Shown in pieces: positions 6,103 to 50,617 of a stretch of 50,617 nucleotides of DNA; the stretch's first letter is position 1, and each line of letters starts with the position of its first letter. The DNA comes from an uncultured delta proteobacterium. GTDB lineage: Bacteria > Myxococcota_A > Polyangia > Polyangiales > Polyangiaceae. The stretch spans positions 1-50,617 of the forward strand of contig CAIVJW010000271.1 of NCBI GenBank assembly GCA_903906315.1, read 5' to 3'. Under the pieces are notes generated by a model, which worked only from the letters and a program-made list of their open reading frames with translations, was not told the origin of the DNA and ran no database searches. Position numbers and translations under genes: made by a program.

Positions 6103-6137
6103 GGGGATAGCGCAGCGCCCGGCGCTCGGTCGCCCGG

Positions 6138-6156: not shown

Positions 6157-6235
6157 GCGCACCCGACCACGCGGCGCGCCGCTGGCCCGCTCGCGTCGCT
6201 GGACGCGCCGACAGCGTCGGACTCGCGCAGTCCGT

Positions 6236-6694: not shown

Positions 6695-6890
6695 ATAGTA
6701 TATGGTCGCACGGAGCGCTCGCCGGGTGCAATGCCGACAGGAGCGCAGCAGGGATGCCGGATTGCCGGATGCCATGCGGTGCCGTTTCGGAGGCGCCGCG
6801 AAGTGCGAGGTTGCCGTTCGTCGGACCCAGTTCCCTGCCTGCCCGCCCGTGCGGCTCCGATCGCGAAGATGGGGAGTCGACGCGGCGCGG

Positions 6891-31986: not shown

Positions 31987-32653
31987 GTTTCACCTCGGAG
32001 TGCGCAGGCTACCTGCCTGCGCGCCGAGGCCCAAGAAACCGGTGACCGCGCGCGGTATGTCCTGGGCGCCCGGCGATCCGAGGGCGCCGGTCATCCCTCG
32101 AGGACCCGCGGAGTCGCGCCGCGTGAATGCCCCGGGCGGAACGGTGGCCGTGGGCTGCTTCGGGGGAGGCAACCGCACCATTTGCGTGCGGGTGCTTCGG
32201 TGAATTGCGCTGTATTTGTTTGGCGAAACACGCAAATTGGCACTCAAGATTCCGCGGACGCACCCGACTAATACAGTGACGAATGGGCCCCGAGAATGCA
32301 GCTTCGGCACGTCCAGATCTGCCCGCGCAGGGCGGGAGTGTGGACGGAATCCGGGTCCCCCCGCGCGCCGGGGGATCGGCGAACGACGCCGCCTGCGTCC
32401 GGCGTGAAGCCAGGCGCCGAGTGGCGCTTCCGTGCTGGACGCACGCGGTCGTCGGCTGGCGGGGCCATTCTGCGGGTCGGAGTCGGCGAGTCGCGCGCCG
32501 CGGCTGTCGACCTCCGCGTGCGCCCCGGCACGGCTCGAGGGCACCGCGCTCGAGCTGCGCCGACCTGACCCCCTCCTCGCTTCCTGGGTATCCCCTCCGA
32601 GCTCTCCTGTAGGCGAGCCACGGCTGCAACTACGAAAACGAAGGACACCAAGA
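31987..32653. other. 667-bp regulatory region upstream of the chemosensory operon
   Basis: This separates the divergent J-domain gene from the first chemosensory gene and should hold both promoters. The only AT-rich stretch is about 32200-32285. It contains an inverted repeat AATTGCG (32203-32209) / CGCAAATT (32231-32238) and a TAATAC word near 32269. A sigma54-like match at 32237 fails at the GC element. No open frame has gene-like codon use. Confidence 0.45.
32203..32238. promoter_or_regulatory. AT-rich inverted repeat, candidate operator/promoter
   Basis: AATTGCG and CGCAAATT flank a 21-bp spacer in the only AT-rich patch between the J-domain gene and the chemosensory operon, about 415 bp upstream of the first operon start. 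It is a plausible regulator site; the distance implies a long leader if it serves the operon. Confidence 0.25.
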
Positions 32654-34576: not shown

Positions 34577-34585
34577 GAGGCCGTC

Positions 34586-36151: not shown

Positions 36152-36160
36152 GGTGACGCG

Positions 36161-37225
36161 ATGGTCAAGCTGCTCATCGTCGACGATTCGGCGCTGATGC
36201 GCCGCCAGCTGACGCAGGTCTTTGCGTCCGCTGGCGGTTTCGAGGTCCGGCAGGCCAGAAACGGGCTGGAGGCGGTGGAGCAGAACCGCGAGTTCCAGCC
36301 GGATGTCGTGACGCTCGACATCAACATGCCGGAGATGGACGGCTTGACCGCGCTGTCGCTCATCATGGCCGAGCGACCGGTGCCGGTGGTGATGGTCTCG
36401 TCGCTGACCGAGCGCGGGGCCATCGCCACGTTCGAGGCCCTGAATCTGGGGGCCGTCGACTACATCGCCAAACCGGAGGGAACGATCTCTCTCTCGATGG
36501 AGTCGGTGCGGGAGGCGCTGATCAGCAAGGTGCGCGGCGCGGCCGGCGCCAAGCTGCGGAGGAAGCGGGCGACGCCCGGCGAGCTGTCCGCGCCGGAGAT
36601 CCGGGCGGTCGGCGTGCCCCGGCAGGACCCGGGGCGGCGCGGTGTGGCGGGCGGGGGCGTGGTGGTCGTCGGGGTCTCGACCGGGGGTCCCCGGACGCTG
36701 GAGGAGATCCTGCCGAAGCTGCCCGCCGACTTCCCGTGGCCGGTGCTGATCGCGCAGCACATGCCCGCGGCGTTCACCAAGAGCTTCGCCGACCGGATGA
36801 ACGATCACTGTGCCGTCGAGGTGCTCGAGGCAAATCACCCGATGGCCGTGGAGCCGGGGAAGGTCTACATCGGTCGCGGCGGCGCCGACCTCGTGGTGGC
36901 GAGGCGGGCGGGCAAGCTCTTCGCGCTGCCGAAGCCGGAGTCGTCGCAGTTTCTCTGGCATCCCTCGGTGGAGCTGCTCGGCCTCACGGTGCTCGAGCAC
37001 TGCGACCCGACGAAGGTCATCGCGGTGATGCTCACCGGCATGGGGTCCGACGGGTCGGTGGCCTTCGCGGAGATTCGCCGGCGCGGCGGGCGCACCGTCG
37101 CGGAGTCCGAGCAATCGGCGGTGGTGTTCGGGATGCCCGCGGAGCTCATCCGGCTCGGGGGTGCCACGCTGGTCCTGCCAGCGGAGAGCATCGCCACGCA
37201 AATCATGCTCTGGGCCGGAAGCTGA
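36161..37225 (+). CDS. cheB: chemotaxis protein-glutamate methylesterase CheB
   Basis: This 354-residue protein has a receiver domain (about 1-120; LLIVDDSALMRR, TLDINMPEMDG, Thr/Ser in MVSSLTE, AKPEG) and a basic linker. The C-terminal methylesterase (about 165-354) has the catalytic triad in GVSTGGP (Ser about 173), IAQHMPAAF and TGMGSDGS. It removes methyl groups from receptor glutamates and can deamidate glutamines, with activity controlled by CheA phosphorylation. The length and layout are standard. It follows the CheW gene by 9 bp. Confidence 0.96.
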   Translation: MVKLLIVDDSALMRRQLTQVFASAGGFEVRQARNGLEAVEQNREFQPDVVTLDINMPEMDGLTALSLIMAERPVPVVMVSSLTERGAIATFEALNLGAVDYIAKPEGTISLSMESVREALISKVRGAAGAKLRRKRATPGELSAPEIRAVGVPRQDPGRRGVAGGGVVVVGVSTGGPRTLEEILPKLPADFPWPVLIAQHMPAAFTKSFADRMNDHCAVEVLEANHPMAVEPGKVYIGRGGADLVVARRAGKLFALPKPESSQFLWHPSVELLGLTVLEHCDPTKVIAVMLTGMGSDGSVAFAEIRRRGGRTVAESEQSAVVFGMPAELIRLGGATLVLPAESIATQIMLWAGS

Positions 37226-37234
37226 ATCGAGGCC

Positions 37235-37858
37235 ATGGCACTCATCAAGACGCAAGCAACCGGCGCCGTCCGGGCCGAGGAGCGCAAGCGGGGGCGGTCG
37301 TGCGCGGACCTTCGGGCGCAGCTCGGAGACCCGGATTCGACGGCGCGGCGCTGGGCCGTGCGCGACATCGTCGCCTGTCCCGAGGCCTCCGCCTCCCTGG
37401 TGGAGCGACTGAAGTTCGAACCCGTGGCGATGGTGCGGGAGGTGATCTTCACCTCGCTGACCCGGCTCGGCGACGCGGTCGCGGTCGCGGGGCTGGTCGA
37501 GTGCCTCCGCAGCGAGGACGCCGCCGTGCGGAGCGGCGCCATCGAGGCGATGCAGCAGCTGCCCGACGAGGTGGCGCCGATCATGCACGGGCTCCTGACG
37601 GACCTGGACCCGGACGTCCGCATCTTCGCCGTCAACATCCTCGAGTCCCTCCGTCACCCCGACGTGGAAGGCTGGCTGATCCGGGTGATCGAGACCGACC
37701 CGCACGTCAACGTCTGTGCTGCGGCGGTGGACTTGCTCGGGGAGGTCGGAACCGCGGCAGCGCAGGAGCCGCTCGCCCGGCTGAAGGTCCGGTTCGGCTA
37801 CGAGCCGTACATCCAGTTCGCCGCCGACCTGGCCTTGCGACGCGCGGGAGAAACCTGA
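37235..37858 (+). CDS. HEAT-repeat protein of the chemosensory operon
   Basis: This 207-residue protein consists of about four to five HEAT-like helical repeats (DSTARRWAVRDIVACPEA, MVREVIFTSLTRLGD, DAAVRSGAIEAMQQLPDE, DPDVRIFAVNILESLRHP, HVNVCAAAVDLLGEVG). HEAT proteins serve as protein-binding scaffolds. The N-terminus (MALIKTQATG then basic residues) starts like the operon's receptor (MALIKKFSG then basic residues), which may be a shared docking peptide. It sits between cheB (9 bp) and cheR (1 bp), so it probably acts within the chemosensory complex. The partner is unknown. Confidence 0.85.
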   Translation: MALIKTQATGAVRAEERKRGRSCADLRAQLGDPDSTARRWAVRDIVACPEASASLVERLKFEPVAMVREVIFTSLTRLGDAVAVAGLVECLRSEDAAVRSGAIEAMQQLPDEVAPIMHGLLTDLDPDVRIFAVNILESLRHPDVEGWLIRVIETDPHVNVCAAAVDLLGEVGTAAAQEPLARLKVRFGYEPYIQFAADLALRRAGET

Positions 37859-37859
37859 G

Positions 37860-38711
37860 GTGGCTACGGCGAAGGTCATCATCAGCGACGACGACTTCCA
37901 GAAGTTCCGCGAGTTTTTCTATCGAAAGACCGGGATCAGCTTCGAGCCGACGAAGCGGTACTTCGTCGACAAGCGCCTCGTCGAGCGCATCGAGGCGACG
38001 GGCACGGGCACGTTCTTCGCGTACTTCACGATGCTGCGCTTCCAGGCGTCGTGCGAGGAGCTGCAGCAGGTCACCAACCTGATGACCGTGAACGAGACGT
38101 ACTTCCTGCGGGAGGAGTACCAGTTCGAGTGCCTGGTGAATTCGCTGCTGCCCGACATCGTGGCGCGGAGAGCGGGCCGGACCCCCATTCGTATCTGGTG
38201 CATCCCGTCGTCCTCGGGAGAGGAGCCGTACTCCATCGCCATGTATCTGCTGGAGCGGTGGCCCGGGATCGAGGAGTGGGACGTCGAGATCATCTCCTCC
38301 GACATCGACACCGACATCCTGGACAAGGCGCGTGAAGGGCTCTATTCGGCCCGGTCCGTGCAGAATCTGCCGCCGGAATGGCTGAATAGGTACTTCACCC
38401 AACGAGGCGATCACTTCCAGATCTCCCGGTCGCTTCAGGAGGCGGTGGAGTTCACCCGCGTGAACGTGGCGGACCCGGGCGACACGAGGCACTACCGGGA
38501 CTTCGACATCATCTTCTGCCGCAACCTGCTGATCTACTTCGACGACGTCTCCCGCAAGGCGGCGGCCGAGACGTTCTACGATGCCTTGAGGCCGGGCGGC
38601 TTCGTCTGCCTCGGGCACTCCGAATCGATGAGTCGCATCTCCTCGCTGTTCAAGGTGCGGAAGTTCCCGGAAGCCATCGTGTATGACAAGCCTGTAGAGG
38701 GAGTGCGATGA
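37860..38711 (+). CDS. cheR: chemoreceptor methyltransferase CheR
   Basis: This 283-residue protein is a full-length CheR. The N-terminal helical domain (about 8-70; FQKFREFFYRKTGISF) leads to the VNETYFLREEYQF motif. The SAM-binding domain has IWCIPSSSGEEPYSIAM, an acidic strand end (SSDIDTDILDKAREGLY), and FDIIFCRNLLIYFDD, with the closing LGHSESM. It transfers methyl groups from S-adenosylmethionine to receptor glutamates, opposing CheB. The start is a GTG one base after the HEAT gene stop. Its TGA overlaps the next ATG by four bases. Confidence 0.96.
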   Translation: MATAKVIISDDDFQKFREFFYRKTGISFEPTKRYFVDKRLVERIEATGTGTFFAYFTMLRFQASCEELQQVTNLMTVNETYFLREEYQFECLVNSLLPDIVARRAGRTPIRIWCIPSSSGEEPYSIAMYLLERWPGIEEWDVEIISSDIDTDILDKAREGLYSARSVQNLPPEWLNRYFTQRGDHFQISRSLQEAVEFTRVNVADPGDTRHYRDFDIIFCRNLLIYFDDVSRKAAAETFYDALRPGGFVCLGHSESMSRISSLFKVRKFPEAIVYDKPVEGVR

Positions 38712-39076
38712 AGCGCATCCTGATCGTCGATGATGCGGCCACGGTGCGTATGTATCATCGGAGCATCCTCGCGTCCGCGGGCTACGAGGTACACGAGGCG
38801 ATGAACGGCATCGAGGCGCTCGAGAAGTGCCTGTTGACGCCCTGCGATCTGTACGTCGTGGACATCAACATGCCGAAGCTCGACGGCTACGCCTTCATCA
38901 GCCAGCTGCGCCTCGAGCAGGTGCCCCAGGCGCCGGTCATCATGGTGTCGACCGAGTCCGCGTCTCGCGACGAGCTGAAGGCCTACCGGGCCGGGGCCAA
39001 CAGCTACTTCTACAAGCCCGTCAACGCCGTGCGACTGCTCATCTACGTCCGGCTGCTCCTGGGGGTGCGCGCGTGA
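38708..39076 (+). CDS. CheY-like receiver protein
   Basis: This 122-residue single receiver has LIVDDAATVRM, phospho-Asp in YVVDINMPKLDG, the Thr/Ser position in IMVSTESAS and Lys in YKPVN. It sits between cheR and cheA and overlaps both (ATGA at 38708, GTGA at 39073). It is the first of two CheY-like proteins in the operon. One may carry the output and the other act as a phosphate sink, but sequence does not tell which. Confidence 0.92.
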   Translation: MKRILIVDDAATVRMYHRSILASAGYEVHEAMNGIEALEKCLLTPCDLYVVDINMPKLDGYAFISQLRLEQVPQAPVIMVSTESASRDELKAYRAGANSYFYKPVNAVRLLIYVRLLLGVRA

Positions 39077-41478
39077 CTCCTCTGCTCGAACAATTCCTCT
39101 CCGAGGCCCGCGACGCGCTGCAGGGGATCGGCGAGCGGCTGATCCAGCTCGAGGAGACACCGGATGACCCCGCCGTCATCAACGAGCTGTTTCGGCTGGT
39201 CCACACCCTGAAGGGGAACAGCGGGCTGTTCGACTTCCCCGAGATGACCCGCGTGCTCCACGCGGGCGAGGACCTGCTGGACGCCGTGCGAGAGGGCCGC
39301 CTTTCGTACTCGCACGCGCTGGCGGACCAGCTGCTCGACGCGGCCGATTTCGTCGGCATCCTGTGCGACGAAGCGGAGCTCGAAGGCGGGGTCAAGGCCT
39401 CCCACGGCGCCGACGCCGTGCGGCTGGCAGAGGCGCTGCGAGCCCTGGTGTCGGGGCCGGCCGCTTCGCCGGAGGCGGCCGGAGGCGCCGGCGCCCCGAG
39501 CGACGGACGAGGGGGATCGTCTGCCCCGGGGGCCGCCGCCGGCCAGACGGAGCTGCCGCTCGCGGCGGTTCCGCATGCCATTCGGCTCGATGCCTGGCAA
39601 CGCGCTCGAGACGGTGAAGCTCTGCACTGGCTCTCGTACGTGCCGGCGGCGGACTGCTTCTTCCAGGGGGACGACCCGTTCTTCACGGCCCGCCAGGTGC
39701 CCGGCGTGCTCTGGGGTCGCGTCGTGGTGCGGGAGCCGTGGCCCGGCCTGTCGGAGCTCGACGCCTATCGCTGCGCGCTGAGCTTCGAGGTCCTCGCGGC
39801 CGGCCCGGTGGAGGAGCTGGATTCCCACTTCCGCTACGTCGCCGACCAGGTCCGCGTCCGTGCGGTGGATCCCGGGTGGCTCGTCGCCTCGCAGGAGGGA
39901 GCGCCGCCCGGCGCGACGGTGACCCGCGCGGTGGCGTCACCCGGCCTGCTCGCCGAGGAGCGCGTGGCCCTGGAGTCGATCTTCGCCGCGCAGCGGCGGA
40001 TCCTCGAGCTAGACGACCACCCGCCGTGGGAGCGCGGGCGAATCGAGGCCGTCGCGGGCGTGCTGATTCATTGCTGCGAGGCGACGGGCGACTCCACCTC
40101 GCGAGGGGCGATCGAGGCGGCGCTCGAGCAGACGCTGGCTTTGGGCAACTGCGCTCCTCTGCTGGCCTGGCTCGACCGTCGCACGGTGGTCGCACCGGAG
40201 GCCGCGCTGCCGACGCCGGCTGCGAAGGTGGCCTCGGCGGCGGCCCGCCCGGCCAAGCCGGAGGAGGGCCCGCGCTTCGGCCGGCGCACCGAGGACCAGG
40301 CCGGGGCCAGCCATCTGAAGGTGGACAAGGTCAAGGTCGATCGGCTGATGAACCTGATCGGCGAGATGATCGTGTCGAAGAACGCGCTGCCGTACCTCGC
40401 CCAGCGGGCTGAGGTGCAGTACGGCGTGCGCGATCTGGCGCGGGAGCTGACGGCCCAGTATGCGGTCATCAACCGCATCGCCGAGGAGATGCAGGACGCC
40501 ATCATGCAGGTGCGCATGATGCCCGTCTCGATGGTCTTTCAGCGATTCCACCGGCTCGTGCGGGACCTTTCGCACAAGCTCGGCAAGGAGGTGCAGCTCG
40601 TCCTCGAGGGCGAGGAGACCGAGGCCGACAAGAACATCATCGAGTCGCTCGCCGACCCGCTCATCCACATCGTCAGGAACAGCCTCGACCACGGGCTCGA
40701 GTCCTCGGAGGTGCGCCTCGCTTGCGGCAAGCCGGCCGCGGGGGTGCTGACGCTGCGAGCGACGCACGAAGCGGACCGGGTCCGGATCGACGTCCTCGAC
40801 GACGGTCGCGGGATCGATGTCGGGACGCTCAAGCGCAAGGCTCGGGACAAGGGCCTCATCGACCAGGCCACCTTCGACCGAATGACCGACCGGGAGGCGC
40901 TGAACCTCGTCTTCGAGGCCGGGCTGTCCACGGCCGCGGTCGTGTCCGACGTGTCCGGCCGCGGGGTGGGGATGGACGTCGTCCGGACCGCGGTGGAGCA
41001 CCTCAACGGCACCGTCTTCCTCGAGAGCGAGGTCGGCCGAGGCACCCGCATCAGCATCACCGTGCCGCTCTCCATGGCCGTGACGCAGGTCATGATCGTC
41101 GAGTCGGACGGGCAGCTCTTCGGCGTACCGATAGACCACGTCGTCGAGACCGTGCGAGTGCCTCGCGCGGCCCTCCGGATGATCAAGCACAGCCAGACGA
41201 CCGCGCTCCGCGGGCGCATCGTGCCCTTGAGGGCCCTCAACGACTGGCTGAACATCCCGGCGGAGCCCAGGGTGAACGAGGACGACGAGCTGGCCGTGCT
41301 CATGGTCCGGGTCGGTCGGGAGGTGCTGGGGCTCGTGCTGGACGAGTTCCGCGAGACCGTCGACGTCATTCAGAAGCCGCTGAGCGGCGTGCTCGCTGGG
41401 CTGTCCGCCTACTCGGGCTCGGCCCTCCTCGGCGACGGGTCGGTGCTGATGGTGCTCGATCCGAAGGAGATCGTTTGA
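39073..41478 (+). CDS. cheA: chemotaxis histidine kinase CheA
   Basis: This 801-residue kinase has a P1 Hpt domain with phosphoacceptor His44 in LVHTLKGNSG. A variable region follows (about 150-400), including a small domain with SYVPAADCFFQGDDPFF of the kind seen in other non-flagellar CheA proteins; no canonical P2 is evident. P3 dimerisation starts near VKVDRLMNLIGEMIVSKNAL. The P4 ATPase has HIVRNSLDHGLE, DDGRGID and GRGVGMDVV. The P5 CheW-like domain is at about 670-801. It phosphorylates the CheY proteins and CheB. The GTG start overlaps the preceding stop, and its own TGA overlaps the next ATG (TGATG). Confidence 0.96.
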   Translation: MTPLLEQFLSEARDALQGIGERLIQLEETPDDPAVINELFRLVHTLKGNSGLFDFPEMTRVLHAGEDLLDAVREGRLSYSHALADQLLDAADFVGILCDEAELEGGVKASHGADAVRLAEALRALVSGPAASPEAAGGAGAPSDGRGGSSAPGAAAGQTELPLAAVPHAIRLDAWQRARDGEALHWLSYVPAADCFFQGDDPFFTARQVPGVLWGRVVVREPWPGLSELDAYRCALSFEVLAAGPVEELDSHFRYVADQVRVRAVDPGWLVASQEGAPPGATVTRAVASPGLLAEERVALESIFAAQRRILELDDHPPWERGRIEAVAGVLIHCCEATGDSTSRGAIEAALEQTLALGNCAPLLAWLDRRTVVAPEAALPTPAAKVASAAARPAKPEEGPRFGRRTEDQAGASHLKVDKVKVDRLMNLIGEMIVSKNALPYLAQRAEVQYGVRDLARELTAQYAVINRIAEEMQDAIMQVRMMPVSMVFQRFHRLVRDLSHKLGKEVQLVLEGEETEADKNIIESLADPLIHIVRNSLDHGLESSEVRLACGKPAAGVLTLRATHEADRVRIDVLDDGRGIDVGTLKRKARDKGLIDQATFDRMTDREALNLVFEAGLSTAAVVSDVSGRGVGMDVVRTAVEHLNGTVFLESEVGRGTRISITVPLSMAVTQVMIVESDGQLFGVPIDHVVETVRVPRAALRMIKHSQTTALRGRIVPLRALNDWLNIPAEPRVNEDDELAVLMVRVGREVLGLVLDEFRETVDVIQKPLSGVLAGLSAYSGSALLGDGSVLMVLDPKEIV

Positions 41479-41765
41479 TGCCGATCGAATTCACGGAAGA
41501 CCGGGTGGAGTGTCGCGACCTCGTCGGCGTCGCCGAGGCGGAGGAGCTGCTCGAGTGGCTGCAGTGCTGGCCTGCCGCCCAGGTGGACCTGCTCGGCTGC
41601 ACCCACCTGCACCCGGCGACCTTGCAGGTGCTCCTGGCAGCCGGTACGCGGGTCGCGGCCTGGCCGGAGGACGCGTCCCTGCGGGCGTGGCTGGAGACCA
41701 TCTTGAAGGGCGCCGCGAAGCGCGAGGAGGACGACCGCGATGGCGAAGAGCATTCTCCTCGTTGA
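41478..41765 (+). CDS. small STAS-like protein
   Basis: This 95-residue protein has a STAS-like beta-alpha pattern: an initial strand pair, a helix (VAEAEELLEWLQCW), the strand AQVDLLGCTHLHPATLQVLL and a terminal helix. In STAS proteins the corresponding position is the strand-loop carrying the phosphorylated Ser/Thr; here it reads GCTHLH. The tail is highly charged (KREEDDRDGEEHSPR), and its last 26 bases overlap the next gene. It may be a phosphorylatable switch or scaffold in the kinase complex. The assignment is by fold resemblance only. Confidence 0.65.
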   Translation: MPIEFTEDRVECRDLVGVAEAEELLEWLQCWPAAQVDLLGCTHLHPATLQVLLAAGTRVAAWPEDASLRAWLETILKGAAKREEDDRDGEEHSPR

Positions 41766-42114
41766 CGACTCGGCGACGATGCTGATGAGCGTCAAGTCGA
41801 TCCTGGAGATCGGCGGCTTCAAAGTGGAGACGTCCAGCGACGGGTTGCAGGCGCTCAACAAGCTCAAGGGCGGCAGCAAGCCCGACCTGATCATCACCGA
41901 CATCAACATGCCGAACATGGGCGGGCTCGAGTTCATCCAGAGCGTGCGGGCGCTGCCCGGGTTTCGGTTCCTGCCGATCTTGACGCTGACGACGGAGAGC
42001 CAGACCGCCAAGCGCGACGAGGGCCGTCGGCTGGGCGCGACCGGCTGGCTCGTGAAGCCCATCTCCGGTCCCGACCTGATCAAGGTCATCAAGCAAGTGC
42101 TACCCGGGGTGTGA
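41740..42114 (+). CDS. cheY: CheY response regulator
   Basis: This 124-residue single receiver has LLVDDSATMLMSVKSIL, phospho-Asp in IITDINMPNMGG, the switch Thr in LTLTTES and Lys in LVKPI. Length and motifs match classical CheY proteins that act without an output domain. It starts inside the 3' end of the STAS-like gene (26-base overlap, different frame) and ends one base before the next gene. It is probably the main phosphoacceptor of CheA and the substrate of the downstream CheZ-like motif. Confidence 0.93.
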   Translation: MAKSILLVDDSATMLMSVKSILEIGGFKVETSSDGLQALNKLKGGSKPDLIITDINMPNMGGLEFIQSVRALPGFRFLPILTLTTESQTAKRDEGRRLGATGWLVKPISGPDLIKVIKQVLPGV

Positions 42115-42115
42115 C

Positions 42116-43195
42116 ATGGACGTCGGGAGACGCGGAGGCGACCTCTCCGGCGGCACGCCCCGCGTGCTGACGGCGGCGGAGGATGGGATCCTGGTCGAGA
42201 ACCGCGAGGCTCTGCAGGCGGTCCTGGCGTCCGTGTCTCCTCTGACGGACCTCCTGCAGGCGCACCTCACGAGGACCAGCAAGACGACGGAGGCCGCTGC
42301 GCTGGCCCTCCTACAGCGGCTGACGGACGTGGAGACGGACGCTTCGCGGCTGCTCGTCAGCCTGGGCGTGGCCCGTGACAAGGCGACGTTGCTCAACAAC
42401 GAAGCGCAGACGCTGATCCGAGAGAGCCGGCTGCGTCTCGCCGAGATGGACGTGTACCGGCGCGATCGCGAGCGGCAGACGCAGGAGGACCGGGTCGACA
42501 TCCAGCGGCTGTTCGAGCAGGTCGAGCAGCTGCGGCCGATGACCGAGATGATCCGGGAGATGACCATCCAGACGAACATGCTCGGCATCAACGCCGCCAT
42601 CCAGGCCGCGCACGCGGGGCCGGTCGGGCGCGGCTTCGCCGTCGTGGCGGGCGAGATGCGCGCGCTGGCCACGCAGGTCAAGTCGGGCGTGGTGCGCATC
42701 GAGGCGAGCTTGTCGGGCGTGCTCGGGGCCGTGCAGAGGAGACTGGATGCGACGTGGCGGGCGCAGAGCCAGGTCGGCGCCGAGGCGGCGTGGCTCACGA
42801 CGCTGACGTCGAGCATGGCGAGGCTGTCGGCGAACTGCGAGAACAGCTCGGGGGAGCTGAACGCCCTGGCCGAGAAGACCTACCAGGCGGTGGGTTCGAT
42901 CCGGTCCGTGGTCATCGAGGCGCTGGAGGACGTCCAGTTTCAGGACATCGCCTGCCAGCAGATCGAGCAAGTGAAGACCGGGCTCGCGATGTGCGGCCAT
43001 TCGCTGCGGGAGACGTCGGGGGAGCTCGACCGGGACCACTTCGAGCGGCTCGAGATCCGGACGCTCGAGCACGTCGCGGTGGCGCTGCACGCCACGTATG
43101 CCATGCAGGCGCAGTACACGACCCACCACGCGGTCGCGGGGGGCAGCTCCGCGGCCGGGGACGACCACGGACGGCCGGACATCGAGCTCTTCTGA
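42116..43195 (+). CDS. soluble MCP-like protein with C-terminal CheZ-type DxxxQ motif
   Basis: This 359-residue helical protein has no membrane span. The central region carries an MCP tip (MTIQTNMLGINAAIQAAHAG, then VGRGFAVVAGEMRALA) at about residues 142-185, flanked by helices. Near residues 272-285 lies VQFQDIACQQIEQV: Asp277 and Gln281 reproduce the DxxxQ catalytic pair of the CheY phosphatase CheZ, where the equivalent segment is FQDLTGQ. The protein therefore looks like a receptor hairpin fused to a CheZ-like active site. A degraded receptor whose motif serves only as packing is the alternative. It is the last gene of the operon, one base after cheY. Confidence 0.82.
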   Translation: MDVGRRGGDLSGGTPRVLTAAEDGILVENREALQAVLASVSPLTDLLQAHLTRTSKTTEAAALALLQRLTDVETDASRLLVSLGVARDKATLLNNEAQTLIRESRLRLAEMDVYRRDRERQTQEDRVDIQRLFEQVEQLRPMTEMIREMTIQTNMLGINAAIQAAHAGPVGRGFAVVAGEMRALATQVKSGVVRIEASLSGVLGAVQRRLDATWRAQSQVGAEAAWLTTLTSSMARLSANCENSSGELNALAEKTYQAVGSIRSVVIEALEDVQFQDIACQQIEQVKTGLAMCGHSLRETSGELDRDHFERLEIRTLEHVAVALHATYAMQAQYTTHHAVAGGSSAAGDDHGRPDIELF

Positions 43196-43503
43196 GGGCC
43201 AGCGCAGGGACAGCGAGCGTCAGCTTTCGGGCGCGCTCCCTCCTGGGCGCGGGACCTCGTCGGCGGGGCGCCTGGGTCGAGGCTGCCGGGAAGGATAGCG
43301 TGCTCTCGGTCGAGGGTCGAGCGCGTGCTGTGGGCGGGCGCGATCCGCGCGCGCCACGCGGGGAGTCGCGGGCGGTCGCCGCTCGTGGAATGGTGCCGTG
43401 TATCTGGACGAGGCTCGCGCGATCCGCGGCAAATCCTGGGGTTTGGGCCAATTCGTAGGCCGCGGTCCGCGCGGGGGGCGTTTGGGTGCTATGGTGTTGT
43501 CCC
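43196..43503. other. 308-bp intergenic region after the chemosensory operon
   Basis: Nothing recognisable is present: no clear terminator, promoter, RNA gene or coding frame. It probably holds the operon terminator and the promoter of the beta-helix lipoprotein. Confidence 0.4.
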
Positions 43504-45336
43504 ATGCAGTACCCTCTCGTTCTCTCGACGATTGGCATTCTCATTGGGTCTCTATCGGCATGTAGTGGCTCGATCGAAGGCGCCGCGGAGACCGCTCACG
43601 GCGCCGTGGGCGGCACGATTGACGCCGGCGATCGGGTCGGATCGGGCGGCGGGGCGACGACGACCACGGGCTCGACCACGAGCTCGACGACCGTCACCGG
43701 CACGGGCGGCGGATCGGGCGGCGCCGCGACGACGACCGCGGGCGGCGGATCGGGCGGCGGGGCGACGACGAGCACGACCAGCGGCTCGGGGGGCGGGGCG
43801 ACGACGAGCACGGGCTCGACCACGAGCTCGACGACGGTCACCGGCGCGGGGGGCGCGGGGGGCGGGGCGACGACGATCACGGGCTCGACCACGAGCTCGA
43901 CGACGGTCACCGGCGCGGGCGGCGCGGGGGGCGGTCCCGGCGTGCCGCCGCCGGTCGGCTGCGACCCCGGTGTGAACAAGACCTACGACGTCGGCGACGG
44001 CAAGCCGTATGCGAAGCTCGGCGCCGTTCCCTGGTCGACTCTGGGCCCCGGTGACACGGTGCGTATCTTCCCGAAGCCGGGCGGCTACCACGAGAAATTC
44101 ATCCTGAGCACGCGCGGGGCCGACGGTGCGCCGATCCGCGTGTGCGGCGTCGCGGCCGCCGACGGGTCGCGCCCGGTGATCGACGGCAAGGACGCCACGA
44201 CGGACGCGAAGGCTGCGTTCGGCGGGTACATGCCGCTGCAGGATCTCGGCCTCATCACGATCGCTCGGGGCGCGCAGGCCTACGGCTTCCGGCCCGGCTG
44301 GATCGTGATCGAGGGGCTCGTGATCCAGGGCGCGAACGGCGGCAACACGTACACGGCGACGACCGGCGCCGTGCGCTCCTACGACTCCTTCGCGGCGGGG
44401 GTGAACCTCAACGCGGGAGATCACGTCACCCTCCGCCACTGCGAGCTACGCGACGACGGGAACGGCCTGTTCTCGAACTCGAAGCACGAGGTCGAGGGCA
44501 CGTTGACGCGCGAGGTGCTGGTCGAGGGCAACTACTTTCACGACAACGGGGTGGTGGGGAGTTACTCGATGCACGACGCGTACACGCAGGCGCTCGGCAT
44601 CGTCTACCAGTACAACCGCTTCGGCCCGCTCCGCCCCGGCGCGGCCGGCGCGGCGCTGAAGGACCGGTCGGCGGGCACGGTCGTGCGATACAACTGGATC
44701 GAGGGCACGGTGCGGATGATTGACCTCGTCGACGCGCAGGACCACGCGCCCGACGCGCTCGCCGACCCGCGATACCACCAGACCTTCGTCTACGGCAACG
44801 TGATCATCTCGAGGACGGGCGACGCGACTCGCATGGTGCACTACGGCGGCGACACGGGGGGCTTCGAGCAGAATTTCCGCAAAGGCACGCTCTACTTCTT
44901 CGGCAACACGGTCATCAGCCGGCACGACCTCGGTGATGCCTGGGGAGTCAGCGTCCTCTATGCGTCGACGAACGACGAGGCGATCGATGCTCGCGACAAC
45001 GTGGTTTCGCACGTCGGGTCGAGCCACCTCTGGCTGATGACCGACCTCGGCCACCTTGTGCTCGGCACGAACTGGATCACGAGCGGGTGGAAGGACGGGT
45101 CCGACAAGTTCGCGGGCACGGTGACCGGCGCGGCCAGCGTGGTGGGCGGAGCCGATGCGCTGCTCGACCCGGGGACGTTTCACCCACTGGTCGGCTCGCC
45201 GGTGATCGGCACGGCGGGCGCGCTCGCGCCGGAGGCCGCGCCGTACCCGGTCGATTCGCAGTACGACGGCGCCTCGGGCACGCCGCGCCCGCCGCTCGGG
45301 GTGGCGTCCGACATGGGCGCATTCGCCGGCGGGTGA
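43504..45336 (+). CDS. parallel beta-helix lipoprotein (pectate-lyase-like fold)
   Basis: This 610-residue lipoprotein has a signal peptide with lipobox SLSAC (Cys about residue 20). A low-complexity linker of Thr/Ser and Gly/Ala blocks covers about 45-150. The right-handed beta-helix domain (about 155-610) has short repeated strands typical of the fold (WIVIEGLVIQGAN, HVTLRHCELRDDGNGLFS, VLVEGNYFHDNG, TVVRYNWIEGT, TFVYGNVIISRTGD, LYFFGNTVISRH). It resembles polysaccharide lyases or surface carbohydrate-binding proteins, but no catalytic residues can be assigned. ATG 43504 gives a proper signal peptide. It was probably anchored on the outer surface by the flexible linker. Confidence 0.85.
   Translation: MQYPLVLSTIGILIGSLSACSGSIEGAAETAHGAVGGTIDAGDRVGSGGGATTTTGSTTSSTTVTGTGGGSGGAATTTAGGGSGGGATTSTTSGSGGGATTSTGSTTSSTTVTGAGGAGGGATTITGSTTSSTTVTGAGGAGGGPGVPPPVGCDPGVNKTYDVGDGKPYAKLGAVPWSTLGPGDTVRIFPKPGGYHEKFILSTRGADGAPIRVCGVAAADGSRPVIDGKDATTDAKAAFGGYMPLQDLGLITIARGAQAYGFRPGWIVIEGLVIQGANGGNTYTATTGAVRSYDSFAAGVNLNAGDHVTLRHCELRDDGNGLFSNSKHEVEGTLTREVLVEGNYFHDNGVVGSYSMHDAYTQALGIVYQYNRFGPLRPGAAGAALKDRSAGTVVRYNWIEGTVRMIDLVDAQDHAPDALADPRYHQTFVYGNVIISRTGDATRMVHYGGDTGGFEQNFRKGTLYFFGNTVISRHDLGDAWGVSVLYASTNDEAIDARDNVVSHVGSSHLWLMTDLGHLVLGTNWITSGWKDGSDKFAGTVTGAASVVGGADALLDPGTFHPLVGSPVIGTAGALAPEAAPYPVDSQYDGASGTPRPPLGVASDMGAFAGG
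43650..43940 (+). repeat. in-gene imperfect tandem repeats encoding the Thr/Ser/Gly linker
   Basis: The words GGCTCGACCACGAGCTCGAC and GACGGTCACCGGCGCGGG recur three times with GGCGGGGCGACGACG between them, giving repeated TGSTTSSTTVTG and GGAGGG peptides. These repeats are in frame and probably vary in number by slippage. Confidence 0.7.
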
Positions 45337-45804
45337 GGGCCGCGAGGGCCTCGCGCGTCCGTGCGTGGACGCGCTAGCACCACGGCTGGAGACTTTGGCG
45401 GATGGAGTCTGCGGGCAGGGGCAGCGGCGGCCACGTGAGGCCGGCGAGGCCGGTGAACGGCACGGTTCTGGTCGATCGTGCCGCGGGGCATGCCGGAGGG
45501 CTTGGCCTCCTTCGGCGCTGCGCGGCCCGGGCCGCAGGCGACGGGCTCATCCACCGGTTTCGCCGGTGCTTTCGTGGCCTTGCCGCGCGTCCAGGCGCAC
45601 TCGTCGAGACAACTTTGCAGCCGTGGTGCCAGGTGCGGCGGCCGTCGCCTGGCGGCGGGCCGAAGGGGCCCGGCGAGCGATGGACGGCCCGCGTGCGCGC
45701 GGGCTGCGCGGCCACGGTTGCGCCCGCGCACCGTCGTCGGCGACCATCGGCTCCGCGGGGGCGCGCCGAGGCGGCCCCGTGTCCACGTCCACCGAGGAGC
45801 CCCG
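45337..45804. other. 468-bp intergenic region with a long-range inverted repeat
   Basis: No convincing gene is visible, although frames stay open on both strands because of high GC. A perfect 12-bp inverted repeat GCACCACGGCTG (45377-45388) / CAGCCGTGGTGC (45618-45629) bounds a 253-bp segment, possibly a small non-autonomous element. The following gene has GAGGAG just before its ATG, so its promoter should lie in the last part. Confidence 0.4.
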
Positions 45805-46866
45805 ATGTCCACCGCCGAAGCGCCCGCGATCCCCGATCCGGCAGCCCTGCCCAAGAACCCTTCCCGGCGCCACCTCGCGCAGCTCGCGCGGTTCGAGGCC
45901 GCGGCCACGGTCGCCGTGGCCCAGCACCACGGCACGCCGCGCACCGCAGCCGGTCATTTCCTCTACAAGGCGGACGGCCGCACGCCGATGTTCTACCTGC
46001 AGAGCCTCGCGCGCGTCGGGCGTCGCATTGGCCCGAGCCGCAAGCTCTGGGAGGCCTGGCTGCCGCGCTTCAAGGAGGTCGAGGACCGGATCGGCGGTTA
46101 CGACTACTGGGTCGACCTCGGCACGCGCGCCGCCGGCTGGGGGGCGCCGGCGCCGCTGATTGGCTATTTCGGCGAGCGCGCCCAGCAGGCGCTCGGCGCC
46201 CTGGAATACGCCCTCGCGCGAGGGGGTTTCTGGGCGGCCGAGGCCGGCACGCCGACCGGCCCCGGGCCCGCGTGCGCCGAGCTCCGGGCGGCGCTCGGCG
46301 ACGTCGAATGGGACAAGCCCAAGCGCGAGCGCAAGGAGATCGCCGCGTTCCTGCGTGACGAGGTCCGCGAGATCGTCGACGACCTCGCCAGCGGCGCGCT
46401 CGACCTGGCCGACGTCGAGCACGGCGTCCACGAGCTGCGCCGCAAGCTCCGCTGGCTGCCCATTTACGGCCTCGCGATGGCCGGCAAGGTCGTGCTCGAC
46501 GAGGGCGCCCCGCGCGGCGCGCTCGCGAAGTACGCGACGCCCGATCGCCTCGCCGAGCGCTTCAACCAGCTCCCGGTCAGCCCCGACGAGCCGGATCCCG
46601 TCCGCTACCACCAGAGCGCGTTCCTCGCGGTGAGCTACCTCATCGCCGAGATCGGCAAGCTGAAGGACCGCGCGCTGTGGACGAACGAGATCGGGCGATC
46701 GTGCGGCGTCGTGGGCGTGGATCCAGGCCCCGTGATCGAGGGCCTCGGGGCGACGCGGATCACCCACGCCGAGGTCGAAGCCGCCGTGCGCGCGCTGGCG
46801 AAGGAGACGATCGACGCCGACGGCGCGCTCACGACCCTCGCCGATCACCTCGACGATCAGACCTGA
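45805..46866 (+). CDS. conserved-looking protein of unknown function
   Basis: This 353-residue soluble, mostly helical protein has no signal peptide or membrane span. Visible features are the segments AAGHFLYKADGRTPMFYLQSL, RIGGYDYWVDLGTRA, a mid-region of charged helices (EWDKPKRERKEIAAFLRDEV) and VEHGVHELRRKLRWLPIYGL. The last slightly resembles the H-x-LRR-x-LR pattern of CHAD-type phosphate-binding proteins, but the second repeat expected for CHAD is not seen. The ATG at 45805 has GAGGAG four bases upstream. It appears monocistronic and ends 75 bp before palindromic repeat copy 2. I cannot assign a function. Confidence 0.75.
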   Translation: MSTAEAPAIPDPAALPKNPSRRHLAQLARFEAAATVAVAQHHGTPRTAAGHFLYKADGRTPMFYLQSLARVGRRIGPSRKLWEAWLPRFKEVEDRIGGYDYWVDLGTRAAGWGAPAPLIGYFGERAQQALGALEYALARGGFWAAEAGTPTGPGPACAELRAALGDVEWDKPKRERKEIAAFLRDEVREIVDDLASGALDLADVEHGVHELRRKLRWLPIYGLAMAGKVVLDEGAPRGALAKYATPDRLAERFNQLPVSPDEPDPVRYHQSAFLAVSYLIAEIGKLKDRALWTNEIGRSCGVVGVDPGPVIEGLGATRITHAEVEAAVRALAKETIDADGALTTLADHLDDQT

Positions 46867-47116: not shown

Positions 47117-47365
47117 CTAGATCCGGAGGAGGCACCGCCGCACGCGCCCCGCGCCGGGGCCCTCGGCGGCCTCCTCGCGGAGCCACAGGAGGAGCCTCCC
47201 CGACCTCCGGCAGAAGTCCCGCAGGTCGGTCTCGAACGACGCGCAGTCGGCGATCACCTCGAGCTCGTCGCCGGGGCGGAGCTGCGTGGCGACGACGGCG
47301 ATCTTCAGGGTGGGCTGCGGGCAGCGCAGCCCGCGGGCGTCGAGCAGTCGAGTCGCCAAGGTCAT
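47117..47365 (-). CDS. TusA/SirA-family sulfur carrier protein
   Basis: This 82-residue protein has the TusA fold signature. Early residues DARGLRCPQPTLK carry the persulfide-accepting Cys in a CPxP motif, then LRPGDELEVIADCASFETDLRDFCRRSG. TusA-like proteins relay sulfane sulfur in tRNA thiolation or in Hdr-like sulfur oxidation. A basic tail (RVRRCLLRI) replaces the usual end. The ATG overlaps the stop of the MvhD-kinase gene by three bases, so it is the third cistron of the Hdr-related operon. Whether it carries sulfur to the HdrA-like protein or serves another pathway is open. Confidence 0.85.
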   Translation of the reverse strand: MTLATRLLDARGLRCPQPTLKIAVVATQLRPGDELEVIADCASFETDLRDFCRRSGRLLLWLREEAAEGPGAGRVRRCLLRI

Positions 47366-50283
47366 CCTCCGTCGGGCGCGGAGCTCCGCGACCGTTCGCG
47401 GCCGCCGGCCGCGTGGGTGTCGATCACCTCGCGGAGCTTCGCGCAGAGCTGTTTGGGGCTGAACGGCTTGAAGAGGATGGGGGCCGAGTCCTGGAGCCCG
47501 CCCTGCTGCAGGAGCTCGCCGGTGTAGCCCGACATGAAGAGGAACGGCAGCGTCGGCCGGACGCGCATCGCCTCGCGGGCGAGCTGGCCGCCGCCCATGC
47601 CGGGCATGATGACGTCGCTGAGCATCGCGTCGATGCGCACCTCGGGCGACTGCAGCAGCGCGAGCGCGGAGGCGCCGTCGTGCGCGGTGATCACGTCAGA
47701 GCCGGCGCGCACGAGGATGCCGCGCGCGAGCTGGCGGACGGCCGGGTCGTCCTCGACGAGCAGCACGACCTCGTCGCCCCGGCTCCGGCCGTCGGCGTGC
47801 GTCGTCACGACCTCGGGGGTGACGAGCTCGAGCGACCGGGGCAGGTACATGCGGAACGTCGTGCCCTCGCCCGGAGCGCTCGCCACCTCCAGCTGCCCGC
47901 CGCTCTGGTCGACGATGCCGTAGACCGTGGCGAGCCCGAGGCCGGTGCCTTGCCCCGACGGCTTCGTCGTGAAGAAGGGCTCGAAGATCCGCACGCGGAC
48001 CTCCTCGCTCATGCCGTGGCCCGTGTCGTGGACCTCGAGCACCACGTAGTCCCCCGGCTGGACGTCGACGTGCTCGGTGCGCCTCTGTTCGGCGAGCGTC
48101 ACGTTGCGCGTGGCGATCGAGATCGAGCCGCCGTCGGGCATGGCGTCGCGGGCGTTGACTGCCAGGTTGATGAGCACCTGGTCTATCTGCACGCGGTCGA
48201 CGCGCACCGGCCAGAGGTCGTCCGCGAGCGCGGTGTGGACGGCGATGTGCTCGCCGATGAGGCGCGCGACGAGCTTGCGAAGCTCGCTTATCACGCGGTT
48301 CAGGATCACGACCGTGGGGCTCAGCACCTGCTTGCGCGAGAAGGCCAGGAGCTGACGTGTCAGGCTCGCCCCGCGGTTGCCGGCGGCGAGGATCGTCTCG
48401 AGATCGGCGCGGATCGGGAGGATCGGCTGCAGATCCGCGAGGCAGAGCTCGGCCGTGCTGTTGACGACGAGGAGGATGTTGTTGAAGTCGTGAGCGACCC
48501 CGCCCGCGAGGCGGCCGATTGCCTCCATCTTCTGCGCCTGTCGCAGCTGCTCCTCTTGCTCGCGGAGGGCTTTCTGCGCGGCGATCCGAAAGGTGACGTC
48601 GTCCACGATCGAGACTGCGCCGGTCGTCACGCCCTGATCGTCGATCAGCGGCACGTTGTACCACTCGCAGACGATCTCGTGCCCGGAGCGGGTGACATTT
48701 TGGTTCGTCGATCGCCGCCCGCCGCGCTGGGCGACGAGGTCGCTCCAGACGACGTCGACCTCGGCGCGCACCGTGGGGGCCACGATGAGGTCCGCGGCGT
48801 GCAAGCCGAGGACGTCGGCCTCGCTCCAGCCGAAGATGCGCTCCGCCGCCGCGTTCCACACCGTCACGCGGAAGTCGGCGTCCCACTCGATGACGGCGAG
48901 GGGGGTGTGCTCGATGATCTGGAGCAGGCGTTGCTGCGACTCGGCGATGAGCTTCTCGGCGCGGTTCCGGTCGGTGATGTCGGTCATCGTCGTGATGACG
49001 CCGGCGACGTCGCAGCGAGGCGTGAGGAAGACCGCGCGATCGACCAGGTAGTCGCGGTGCTCGCCGTCGGCGCCGAGGATCGACTCCTCGGCGATGCGGA
49101 CCCCGTCGACCCGCAGGACCTCGTCGTCGCGGAGCGCGTCGAGCGCCGCCGCGGTGGGCGCGAAGAGGTCGGGTGCCGTGAGGCCGACGATCTCCTCGCG
49201 GGATCGCCCGACGAGCGCCTGGAAGGCTGCGTTGCTGCCGAGGTAGCGCCCCGTCGTGTCCTTGAAGCACATCGGGCCGCTCACCGAGTCGAGGAGGGCC
49301 TGCGTCAGGTGGTCGTCGTCGACGCCCTCCCGCGCGGCGTCTTGCGGGGCGTGGCGCGCCGTCGCGAGGGCGGCGCGGGCTTCGGCCTCGAGCAGCGACG
49401 CGACCAGGCGGAGTCCCGCGTGCCGACGGGCGGTGTCGCCGGCCGTTGCGTCGCCCGCGATCGGCGCGGCGACGAGCGTTGCCCGCAGCACGCCCTCCAC
49501 CAGGATCCGAGCACCGATGTCGAGCGCGTCATCGTCGGCCTCGCCCGTCGTCGCGGGTCGGAGCGACAGATCCAGCCCGGTCGCTTCCGCGCCGAGCGCG
49601 AGGACCGCGTCGAGGCGGGCCGAGCCGAGGCCGAGGTCGACGCCGTGCGCGTCGAGCGAGGGAGTGCCGTCGTGCGACTCGGGCGGTGCGGTCATCGAGG
49701 GCTCGTGGACGGAGTCGCCGGCGCCGTCGCGCGGGATCGCTTCTGGACTATCGTCGGTTCGGCCGCCGGGTGTAGGCGACCGCGAGCGCGCGGAGTCGAA
49801 TTCGGTCAAAGGCTGGATCGGGGGGAAGCCCTCGGGCCGGGGGCCGATCCCGGAGACGTCCAGTCCGGACGGTCTGTCGAGCGGACCGAGCGCTCGAACC
49901 GCCTCGACCGCGGCCGATAGCTCGCCGGCGAACCGGTCCGGCTCGTCGGCGGACACGAACGCGAGGCGGCAGCGGTCGCGGTCGACGCCGGTGCCCTCGA
50001 GGAGCCGCAGGAGCAGCCGTTGCCTCTGCAATGCTCGGTAGTTCTGATCCTCGAAATGGCAGTCGCCGGGGTGGCAGCCGAGCACGACGACGCCGTCCGC
50101 CCCGCTCCGGAGGGCGTGCAGGACCAGCTGCGGGTCGACGCGGCCGGTGCAGGGCACGCGGACGAGGCGGATCTCCGGAGGGCAGGGGATTCGGGCCGCG
50201 CCGCAGCGATCGGCGGCAACGTAGGCGCAGTGCTCGCAGACGAAGCCGACGAGGCGAGGGTCGAACGGGGAGGCCGTGGTCAC
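47362..50283 (-). CDS. MvhD iron-sulfur domain fused to a PAS-PAS hybrid histidine kinase
   Basis: The 973-residue product starts with an MvhD/FlpD-like domain (about 8-140). It has FVCEHCAYVAADRCG, IRLVRVPCTGRVDPQLVLHAL, GADGVVVLGCHPGDCHFEDQN and a later FVSADEPDRFAGEL. These are the Cys pattern of the hydrogenase delta subunit that passes electrons to HdrA. A Pro/Asp-rich linker (140-315) follows. PAS 1 (about 325-435, ending TDITDRNRAE), PAS 2 (about 445-560), HisKA with His598 in GGVAHDFNN and HATPase (NLAVNARDA, DTGHGMS, GQGTGLGLATVYG) come next. The receiver (about 850-965) has LVEDDPAV, LSDVIMPGMGG and FKPFS. The GTG at 50283 overlaps the stop of the HdrA-like gene. It is probably a redox-responsive kinase. 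Confidence 0.88.
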   Translation of the reverse strand: MTTASPFDPRLVGFVCEHCAYVAADRCGAARIPCPPEIRLVRVPCTGRVDPQLVLHALRSGADGVVVLGCHPGDCHFEDQNYRALQRQRLLLRLLEGTGVDRDRCRLAFVSADEPDRFAGELSAAVEAVRALGPLDRPSGLDVSGIGPRPEGFPPIQPLTEFDSARSRSPTPGGRTDDSPEAIPRDGAGDSVHEPSMTAPPESHDGTPSLDAHGVDLGLGSARLDAVLALGAEATGLDLSLRPATTGEADDDALDIGARILVEGVLRATLVAAPIAGDATAGDTARRHAGLRLVASLLEAEARAALATARHAPQDAAREGVDDDHLTQALLDSVSGPMCFKDTTGRYLGSNAAFQALVGRSREEIVGLTAPDLFAPTAAALDALRDDEVLRVDGVRIAEESILGADGEHRDYLVDRAVFLTPRCDVAGVITTMTDITDRNRAEKLIAESQQRLLQIIEHTPLAVIEWDADFRVTVWNAAAERIFGWSEADVLGLHAADLIVAPTVRAEVDVVWSDLVAQRGGRRSTNQNVTRSGHEIVCEWYNVPLIDDQGVTTGAVSIVDDVTFRIAAQKALREQEEQLRQAQKMEAIGRLAGGVAHDFNNILLVVNSTAELCLADLQPILPIRADLETILAAGNRGASLTRQLLAFSRKQVLSPTVVILNRVISELRKLVARLIGEHIAVHTALADDLWPVRVDRVQIDQVLINLAVNARDAMPDGGSISIATRNVTLAEQRRTEHVDVQPGDYVVLEVHDTGHGMSEEVRVRIFEPFFTTKPSGQGTGLGLATVYGIVDQSGGQLEVASAPGEGTTFRMYLPRSLELVTPEVVTTHADGRSRGDEVVLLVEDDPAVRQLARGILVRAGSDVITAHDGASALALLQSPEVRIDAMLSDVIMPGMGGGQLAREAMRVRPTLPFLFMSGYTGELLQQGGLQDSAPILFKPFSPKQLCAKLREVIDTHAAGGRERSRSSAPDGG

Positions 50284-50617
50284 GCGAGCGCCCCCTCGAT
50301 CTCGGCGAAGAGCTGCGCGTCGGTGAAGTGGTGGCCCACGACCGCGGCGGCGGGGCAGGCCGCGACGCACGCGCCGCAGCCGAGGCAGATCGTCGGATTG
50401 ACGACCGCCACGCGCTGTCCGGGGCCGACCTCGATCGCCCGGTAGGGGCAGACTCCGAGGCAGGCGCGGCAGCCGCTGCAGCGGCCCGGATCGACGGCGG
50501 CGACCGCCGGCTCGATGGGCAGCTCGCGTCCTGGGCGGAGCGCGGCGAGCGCGAGGCCTGCGGCGGCGGCGCCGGCGGTCACCGCGGCGCGCGCGTCGCC
50601 CGGGCCGCGGCAGGACC
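50280..50617 (-). CDS. hdrA: C-terminal part of an HdrA-like protein (two [4Fe-4S] clusters), 5' truncated by window edge
   Basis: The frame is open to the window end, giving about 111 residues. It begins with SCRGPGDARAAVTAGAAAAG, which corresponds to the CxGPxD(I/A) segment near the end of HdrA. Two ferredoxin motifs follow (CSGCRACLGVCPYRAIEV and CLGCGACVAACPAAAVVG), then the HdrA-typical end HHFTDAQLFAEIEGAL. HdrA is the FAD/iron-sulfur subunit of heterodisulfide reductase complexes and receives electrons from MvhD. An internal GTG at 50582 could start a small ferredoxin, but the upstream homology argues for a longer gene. The stop overlaps the MvhD-kinase start (GTGA). Confidence 0.8.
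   Translation of the reverse strand, partial: SCRGPGDARAAVTAGAAAAGLALAALRPGRELPIEPAVAAVDPGRCSGCRACLGVCPYRAIEVGPGQRVAVVNPTICLGCGACVAACPAAAVVGHHFTDAQLFAEIEGALA

Follow-up and report, generated by a model that had tools for sequence, protein, structure and literature searches.

What is the electron-transfer subunit of a hydrogenase complex doing on the same polypeptide as a hybrid histidine kinase? The question is raised by one end of contig CAIVJW010000271.1 (C271), part of the 8.79-Mb draft genome (455 contigs) of an uncultured delta proteobacterium of the Polyangiaceae; the 50,617 nucleotides of this contig are called the window here. At its end an MvhD domain, fused to a kinase, is encoded between the genes for HdrA and for a TusA-family protein. 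Our favoured reading, to which we give a probability of about one half, is that Mvh–HdrA complexes of the type accompanied by TusA are tied to chemosensory signalling, and that in this genome a kinase fused to MvhD serves instead, its phosphorylation being set by the flow of H2 or of redox equivalents.

The three genes at the end of the window overlap on the minus strand, as an earlier note made from the sequence alone had described, and all were recognised by profile searches. The first (50280..50615, running off the contig end) is the C-terminal part of HdrA with two [4Fe-4S] motifs (CxxCxxCxxxC); it matches model positions 537–640 of NF040770 (HdrA2) with E 9e-23, a score far under the whole-protein cut-off because only part of HdrA lies within the window. 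The second is the fusion, a single open frame of 973 amino acids (47362..50283, stop included), whose GTG start codon sits inside the HdrA stop (GTGA) and whose own stop codon is overlapped by the ATG of the third gene (ATGA). This third gene (47117..47365) encodes a TusA-family protein of 82 amino acids with a CPQP (CPxP) motif; it matches PF01206 with E 1e-13 and 51 bits (cut-off 28.6) and stays under the cut-off of the NCBI TusA equivalog (34.9 vs 78).

The fusion opens with an MvhD (FlpD) domain (residues 1-140; 49864..50283), recognised by PF02662 (about residues 12–133, E 2.5e-40), by solved MvhD-type chains (best E 5e-36) and in alignments; Cys16, 19, 45, 70 and 75, the five cysteines conserved among homologues, are all kept. 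A linker rich in proline, serine, glycine and aspartate follows (residues 141-330; 49294..49863), then two PAS domains (about residues 331-570; 48574..49293), with PF08448 and PF00989 each matching in two stretches, a HisKA and HATPase_c region (47794..48573) and a receiver domain (47365..47793; PF00072, E 2e-15). HATPase_c is matched with E 1e-23 and HisKA with 26.2 bits, just below the Pfam cut-off of 26.9. An H box (AHDFNN) with His598, the other kinase boxes (N, G1, F, G2) and the receiver Asp890 were all found, and by its histidine, ATPase boxes and receiver aspartate the C-terminal part is predicted to be a hybrid histidine kinase. The G+C content at third codon positions is 0.85–0.97 in every segment of the fusion, and because it remains high through the linker, where both other frames of the minus strand contain stops, the whole is very probably one continuous coding frame, in keeping with the uninterrupted MvhD–PAS–PAS–HisKA–HATPase–receiver order first noticed. 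A structure model of the fusion was mostly poor outside MvhD (mean predicted local distance difference test score (pLDDT) 55, predicted template modelling score 0.41); MvhD itself reached a pLDDT mostly of 85-97 with one block at 60, and linker residues ~141-220 were modelled as disordered (pLDDT 31-41). No Pfam family matched residues 141–330 up to E 10, and with a poor model there we claim no domain in the linker.

The remainder of the operon lies on another contig, which is why its hydrogenase genes were not seen by the earlier note. When this genome was searched with an HdrA profile, model positions 2–541 fell at the very end of contig C44 and positions 537–642 in the window. C44 (6816 nucleotides) shares 23 identical nucleotides with the end of the window, in frame, and carries the N-terminal 545 residues of HdrA at 5182-6816 (locus L058), so that the joined protein has 649 amino acids. 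Upstream of HdrA on C44 are MvhG, the [NiFe]-hydrogenase subunit MvhA and a HycI-type protease, with a MurJ gene beyond MvhG on the opposite strand. The operon is thus MvhG–MvhA–HycI–HdrA–MvhD–TusA, six genes without HdrBC, of which the window carries the 3' half. Sulfur oxidation by sHdr systems features copies of HdrB and HdrC and a lipoate-binding protein. With MvhG and MvhA on C44 we are therefore dealing with a [NiFe]-hydrogenase/HdrA/MvhD/TusA operon and not with a sulfur-oxidation cluster. The CCG (HdrB-type) domain had no Pfam match on C271 or C44, and none within the operon, on which ground we dropped the reading of sHdr-type oxidation (LbpA was not searched for) and, with it, the link that had been suggested from the window; CCG matches occur elsewhere in the genome, on contigs C307, C449 and C237. 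The other half of that suggestion, that two-component signalling is here wired to a redox module, fits the findings and gains strength from the operons of relatives described below.

Mvh type, resembling group 3c, is the best explanation for the predicted hydrogenase. MvhG is of the long type with extra clusters; its closest solved structure is 5odc_E (E 7e-58, residues 25-307) and its best NCBIfam model VhuG, with 179 bits vs a cut-off of 450. MvhA matches PF00374, has both active-site CxxC motifs, scores nearly equally against 7t2r (E 3e-100, slightly ahead) and 5odc (E 9e-95), and finds its best NCBIfam model in VhuA (319 bits vs a cut-off of 800). By these scores the large subunit may belong to group 3c or to group 3d. 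Conserved cysteines are retained throughout: 4/4 in MvhA, 12/12 in MvhG, 5/5 in MvhD and 26/26 in HdrA. Of the highly conserved positions, those at which the window differs number 2/50 in MvhG, 5/117 in MvhA, 6/79 in HdrA and 4/31 in MvhD, the corresponding figures for G400, a genome of the same family, being 3/52, 5/118, 6/83 and 1/31. In an MvhA tree built from 65 rows by a quick method, G400 is the sister of the window (Shimodaira–Hasegawa-like approximate likelihood ratio 90, branch not starred), and the window belongs to a starred group of six that also takes in Nitrospira, Pelobacter, Geobacteraceae and one sequence from the Acidobacteriaceae. The window's terminal branch measures 0.85 vs 0.4 for the sister and its residue make-up is odd, so that faster change of this MvhA is possible. 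The genome holds a second [NiFe]-hydrogenase, of Hox type (L179:3661-12262), with a NuoE/NuoF-like fusion, a HoxU-like protein, small and large subunits, hypF and hypD.

The same operon type recurs in other bacteria, and there TusA and HdrB exclude one another. Relatives' loci were analysed as stop-to-stop frames by phmmer. Out of 166 loci, 49 were set aside, 36 because MvhA was not matched at E<1e-40 and another 13 because no HdrA or MvhD was in reach (among these L250 and the Che-linked L222, cut by a contig end, and L240, with no TusA found and HdrA 4 kb off). In the resulting 117 operons with MvhA, HdrA and MvhD (from L079-L353 and the window), TusA was present in 64, HdrB in 26, neither in 27 (many of them cut by contig ends) and both in none. 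An earlier subset of 60 operons had given 16, 24, 20 and 0 before Geobacter-like, same-family and Nitrospirota loci were added. L144 was scored as having TusA, which adjoins a second HdrA/MvhD cluster of the same locus, and L285 was left out of the counts as it comes from the same assembly as L136 (633/680 30-mers). CCG was also searched for with Pfam in 14 whole genomes. Ten of these, the window's own among them, belong to its class and carry TusA, and they have no CCG match on the operon contig; in G236, a genome without TusA, a CCG match adjoins HdrA; all 14 carry CCG matches elsewhere. TusA, then, stands where HdrBC would be, as if replacing it. On the MvhA tree the TusA label changes five times, at least three of these changes being forced by starred branches; therefore a single inherited event is an unlikely source of its distribution.

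Operons with TusA are also the ones that keep company with chemosensory genes. A Che gene or a methyl-accepting chemotaxis protein (MCP) was found within 5 kb of 39/64 TusA operons, 0/26 HdrB operons and 1/27 with neither (Fisher 1e-8 for TusA vs HdrB operons, with the relatedness of operons ignored). The 39 include the window, whose MCP-like gene is 4.35 kb from TusA; with the window removed the count is 38/63. By set, the Che-linked TusA operons number 14/28 in the Geobacter-like loci, 12/18 in Nitrospirota, 8/12 in the window's class (window included) and 5/6 among the named records, and before the last additions the counts had been 25/44 for TusA, 0/24 for HdrB and 1/27 for neither. Loci were chosen by similarity, not randomly, and other lineages supply the bulk of the HdrB operons. 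This gives weight to the contrast within single genomes: G528 and G642 each have a TusA operon that is Che-linked (L235, L232) and a second, TusA-less Mvh operon that is not (L249, L250).

L108 (Geobacteraceae) has CheB, CheR, CheA, CheY, MvhG, MvhA, HycI, HdrA, MvhD, MCP and TusA on one strand (CheR, CheA, the receiver and the MCP called by Pfam, the others by phmmer). Its MCP (L108:10460-12142) has HAMP and lacks any Pfam sensor domain; placed between mvhD and tusA, it takes the very position occupied by the kinase in the window, and is a candidate for the partner that reads the hydrogenase complex. In L099 (Nitrospira) the operon is followed by CheY, CheW, CheW, MCP, CheB, CheR, CheA and CheY; in G730, like G400 a member of the window's family, by CheW, CheR, CheW, MCP, CheA, CheY and CheB on the same strand; in G024 and G742, of the same family again, TusA is followed by MCP, CheW, CheW, CheA, CheY and CheR, and in G400 too Che genes come after TusA (CheA of G730 and CheR of G400 were confirmed by Pfam). 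In L239, L241 and L247 the MCP domain match stops 111–150 nucleotides ahead of the MvhG match. The CheAs of hydrogenase-linked clusters are of at least two unlike types. That of G730 stands closer to its counterparts in such clusters (261–324 bits against those of L287, L099, L285, L080 and L108, 179 against L079) than to the four CheAs of the window genome (182–206 bits), full-length and partial alignments being mixed in these scores.

Two of the groups concerned were searched more widely. Within the class of the Geobacteraceae genome, MvhA matches were found in 159/195 genomes, and among the matches listed 38 (query included) had at least 59% identity over nearly the full length; 39 loci of the Geobacter-like set were opened, 36 of that kind, often with the order MvhG-MvhA-HycI-HdrA-MvhD-TusA. 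Within the phylum of the Nitrospira genome, MvhD occurred at E ≤ 1e-25 in 48/245 genomes, and the 20 most similar loci opened (query aside) had TusA in 20/20. Two of the Nitrospirota loci carry a kinase after TusA: L338 a PAS–PAS–HisKA–HATPase protein, with an MCP there too, and L346 a PAS-type hybrid kinase of 1241 amino acids. Further signalling genes were seen around these operons. In a Pelobacter record, genes for a receiver, a CheY-like protein and an Hpt–receiver–GGDEF protein lead up to a PocR–PAS–GAF histidine kinase (L100:2693-5014) directly upstream of mvhG. The Geobacter-type operons L213-L219, L223, L232, L235, L236 and others are flanked by genes for CheY–GGDEF proteins (diguanylate cyclases), hinting at an output through cyclic di-GMP. 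L151 (Omnitrophota), distant on the MvhA tree, has TusA in its Mvh operon and an MCP match (phmmer) within 2.5 kb.

The fusion itself is peculiar to the window genome among the loci examined; G400 and G730 have the identical gene order with a free MvhD. We saw no second fusion of MvhD to a signalling protein among 140 MvhD frames from 133 loci (the window among them), in a further set of 50 loci (the window being one and some overlapping the earlier loci), in the 20 loci of the Nitrospirota set or in 28 of the 29 loci L029–L057, by phmmer with the kinase parts of the window and a few others against frames in limited flanks, a survey that unlike kinases could escape. When the whole fusion was searched in 59 genomes, with ~14 candidates scored per genome, all the matches listed except the window's own began at residue 280 or later, that is, in the kinase part. 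MvhD was found in 38/317 genomes of the class at E ≤ 1e-20, loci being opened for part of the matches; the phylum search gave 71/377 genomes, where the best only were opened; an alignment search yielded at least 589 MvhD relatives from 591 stretches, of which the best 80 were kept.

How might such a complex signal? In the MvhADG–HdrABC complex MvhD holds a [2Fe-2S] cluster between MvhG and HdrA. By analogy, H2 would be split by MvhAG here and electrons would pass from the MvhG clusters through the [2Fe-2S] centre of MvhD to the HdrA flavin, with TusA acting as a sulfur or persulfide partner at the position of HdrBC. The PAS–PAS hybrid kinase would hang on MvhD by a disordered tether of ~80 residues. 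Via the tethered PAS domains the complex, through its redox state or its loading, would set autophosphorylation of His598, from which the phosphate would pass to Asp890 and on to an output. In the regulatory hydrogenase, H2 sensing probably depends on H2 being cleaved continuously, with transfer of protons and electrons, and on complex formation with the kinase HoxJ (PMC10073562); by the same HoxBC–HoxJ logic the complex described here would sense H2 or redox state. Alternatively, the signal might be sulfane sulfur read via TusA. In the simplest history, the hydrogenase of this lineage would at first have signalled to a Che system, and a kinase on MvhD would have been gained instead. More tentatively, at somewhat short of even odds, we propose that Mvh–HdrA hydrogenases with TusA and without HdrBC make up a so far unrecognised class of [NiFe]-hydrogenases, sensory or coupled to signalling, which spans several phyla and feeds chemosensory arrays, and that in the lineage of the window a kinase driven by electron flow, fused directly to MvhD, has taken the place of the array.

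Several observations weigh against our favoured reading. The counts are not corrected for phylogeny, and an independent-pairs test of TusA vs HdrB operons had three usable pairs on starred branches, with which significance is unreachable. No Che gene lies within 5 kb of 25/64 TusA operons, and L240 and L242 are Che-linked yet have no TusA in reach. Histidine kinases occur within 5 kb of 17/64 TusA, 9/26 HdrB and 5/27 other operons; being no commoner near TusA than near HdrB operons, kinase neighbours prove nothing, and on this recount we dropped them as evidence. The fusion is known from a single genome, so that nothing shows that selection keeps it, and no cognate response regulator or output regulator was identified for its kinase. 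The 4/31 departures in MvhD, against 1/31 in the sister, mean that electron transfer through MvhD is not assured, and the intact catalytic residues would suit a metabolic enzyme equally well.

The window's own chemosensory genes do not fit well either. A complete Che cluster on the plus strand (32432-43195: MCP, triple-CheW protein, CheB, HEAT-repeat protein, CheR, CheA, CheY and MCP-like) converges on the hydrogenase operon, 3.9–14.7 kb past TusA and on the opposite strand. As the genome encodes four CheAs, of which the cluster holds one, we put the probability of such nearness by chance at about 1 in 100. The cluster's proteins are nevertheless not akin to their counterparts at relatives' operons: kinship between the clusters was tested and not supported. 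An approximately unbiased test of a single clade for the four CheAs gave p 0.07, with long branches present. The cluster may be a chance neighbour and is not treated as part of the system. Between it and TusA are two plus-strand frames without a Pfam match, of 616 amino acids (43486-45336; Gly/Ser/Thr-rich repeats near the start) and 462 amino acids (45478-46866).

Among the other explanations, the one that survives best, though we hold it to be unlikely, is a metabolic enzyme, either an H2:sulfane oxidoreductase acting on TusA persulfide or an electron-bifurcating hydrogenase, in which the kinase is merely housed, its PAS domains sensing another signal or the fusion fixing stoichiometry or location. 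The intact catalytic residues suit such an enzyme, as does a TusA that may be the thiol-side partner where HdrBC is missing; PAS domains could bind a ligand of their own, and kinase genes are common near all operon types. It accounts less readily for a kinase placed in frame on the electron-carrier subunit and for Che genes that recur at TusA-type operons across several lineages. Distinctly less probable is a kinase that controls the expression of this or other hydrogenases in the manner of HoxJ, the Che linkage of relatives being unrelated neighbourhood. Such a role has a precedent in HoxBC–HoxJ and a possible target in the Hox-type locus with hypF and hypD, yet neither the operon nor the adjacent frames that were scanned yielded a DNA-binding response regulator, and 39/64 against 0/26, even uncorrected for relatedness, is hard to blame on neighbourhood alone. 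We consider very improbable an ordinary electron-bifurcating MvhADG–HdrABC complex with HdrBC encoded elsewhere: HdrA, MvhD, MvhG and MvhA are all there and the genome does have CCG-domain matches, but these are all on other contigs, and none of the 117 operons combines TusA with HdrB. Finally, an assembly artefact or decayed gene, conceivable in a draft of 455 contigs with the operon split over two of them at a 23-nucleotide overlap, is scarcely credible for a fusion wholly inside one contig with continuous codon periodicity, gene overlaps at both ends and TusA next to it as in G400.

If our favoured reading is true, a group 3-type hydrogenase with a kinase as its MvhD subunit would offer a direct handle on how electron flow becomes phosphorylation. 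Given the mutual exclusion of TusA and HdrB, and a Che linkage that is found in Geobacter-like bacteria which can be cultured, the idea is open to test by gene deletion, and TusA-type hydrogenases become a candidate input for chemosensory systems whose signal is unknown. In the open-access literature, subscription papers being outside our search, we found no description of an MvhD–kinase fusion or of TusA-type Mvh operons with Che clusters; the word hydrogenase is absent from the main text of a survey of che clusters in Geobacter (PMC2577667). The earlier note's statement that no system of this architecture had been described agrees with that literature for the fusion, and needs qualifying insofar as links between hydrogenases and kinases are known (HydDB groups 2b and C1) and the Mvh cluster of Geobacter sulfurreducens (GSU2416–2423) already has an annotated MCP, MvhV (PMC7894505, PMC8691401). 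The HydDB entries covered here place sensing by [NiFe]-hydrogenases in group 2 only: they assign it to 2b and 2c, state that 2d 'may have a regulatory role', list putative sensing for [FeFe] groups C1–C3, and give for 3c electron bifurcation to heterodisulfide and ferredoxin in methanogens (PMC5037454).

The operon described here can be compared with these systems in turn. The [FeFe]-hydrogenases of groups C1 and C2 are unrelated enzymes and are not known to include HdrA, MvhD or TusA. They resemble the operon's hydrogenase as putative sensory hydrogenases linked to kinases or MCPs (PMC5037454). MvhD inside a larger polypeptide has its parallel in the MvhD–HdrA fusions, known along with MvhD/HdrA pairs (PMC2702500), whose partner is a redox protein and not a kinase. 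HoxBC–HoxJ (group 2b) likewise combines a hydrogenase with a histidine kinase; it belongs to another hydrogenase group and its HoxJ is separate, whereas here the kinase is fused to the electron-transfer subunit in the company of HdrA and TusA, and MvhA is not of HoxC/HupV type, its best matches (among profiles and PDB chains, with no group 2b tree) being Vhu/Mvh-type models and 7t2r. The Mvh cluster of G. sulfurreducens shares the pairing of a hydrogenase cluster with a signalling gene, but its transducer is a separate MCP. In the MvhADG–HdrABC complex of methanogens (5odc), MvhA, MvhG, MvhD and HdrA are homologous to those encoded here (MvhD vs 5odc_D, E 6e-36); from this complex the operon differs in lacking HdrBC, in having TusA, and in an MvhD that bears a hybrid histidine kinase.

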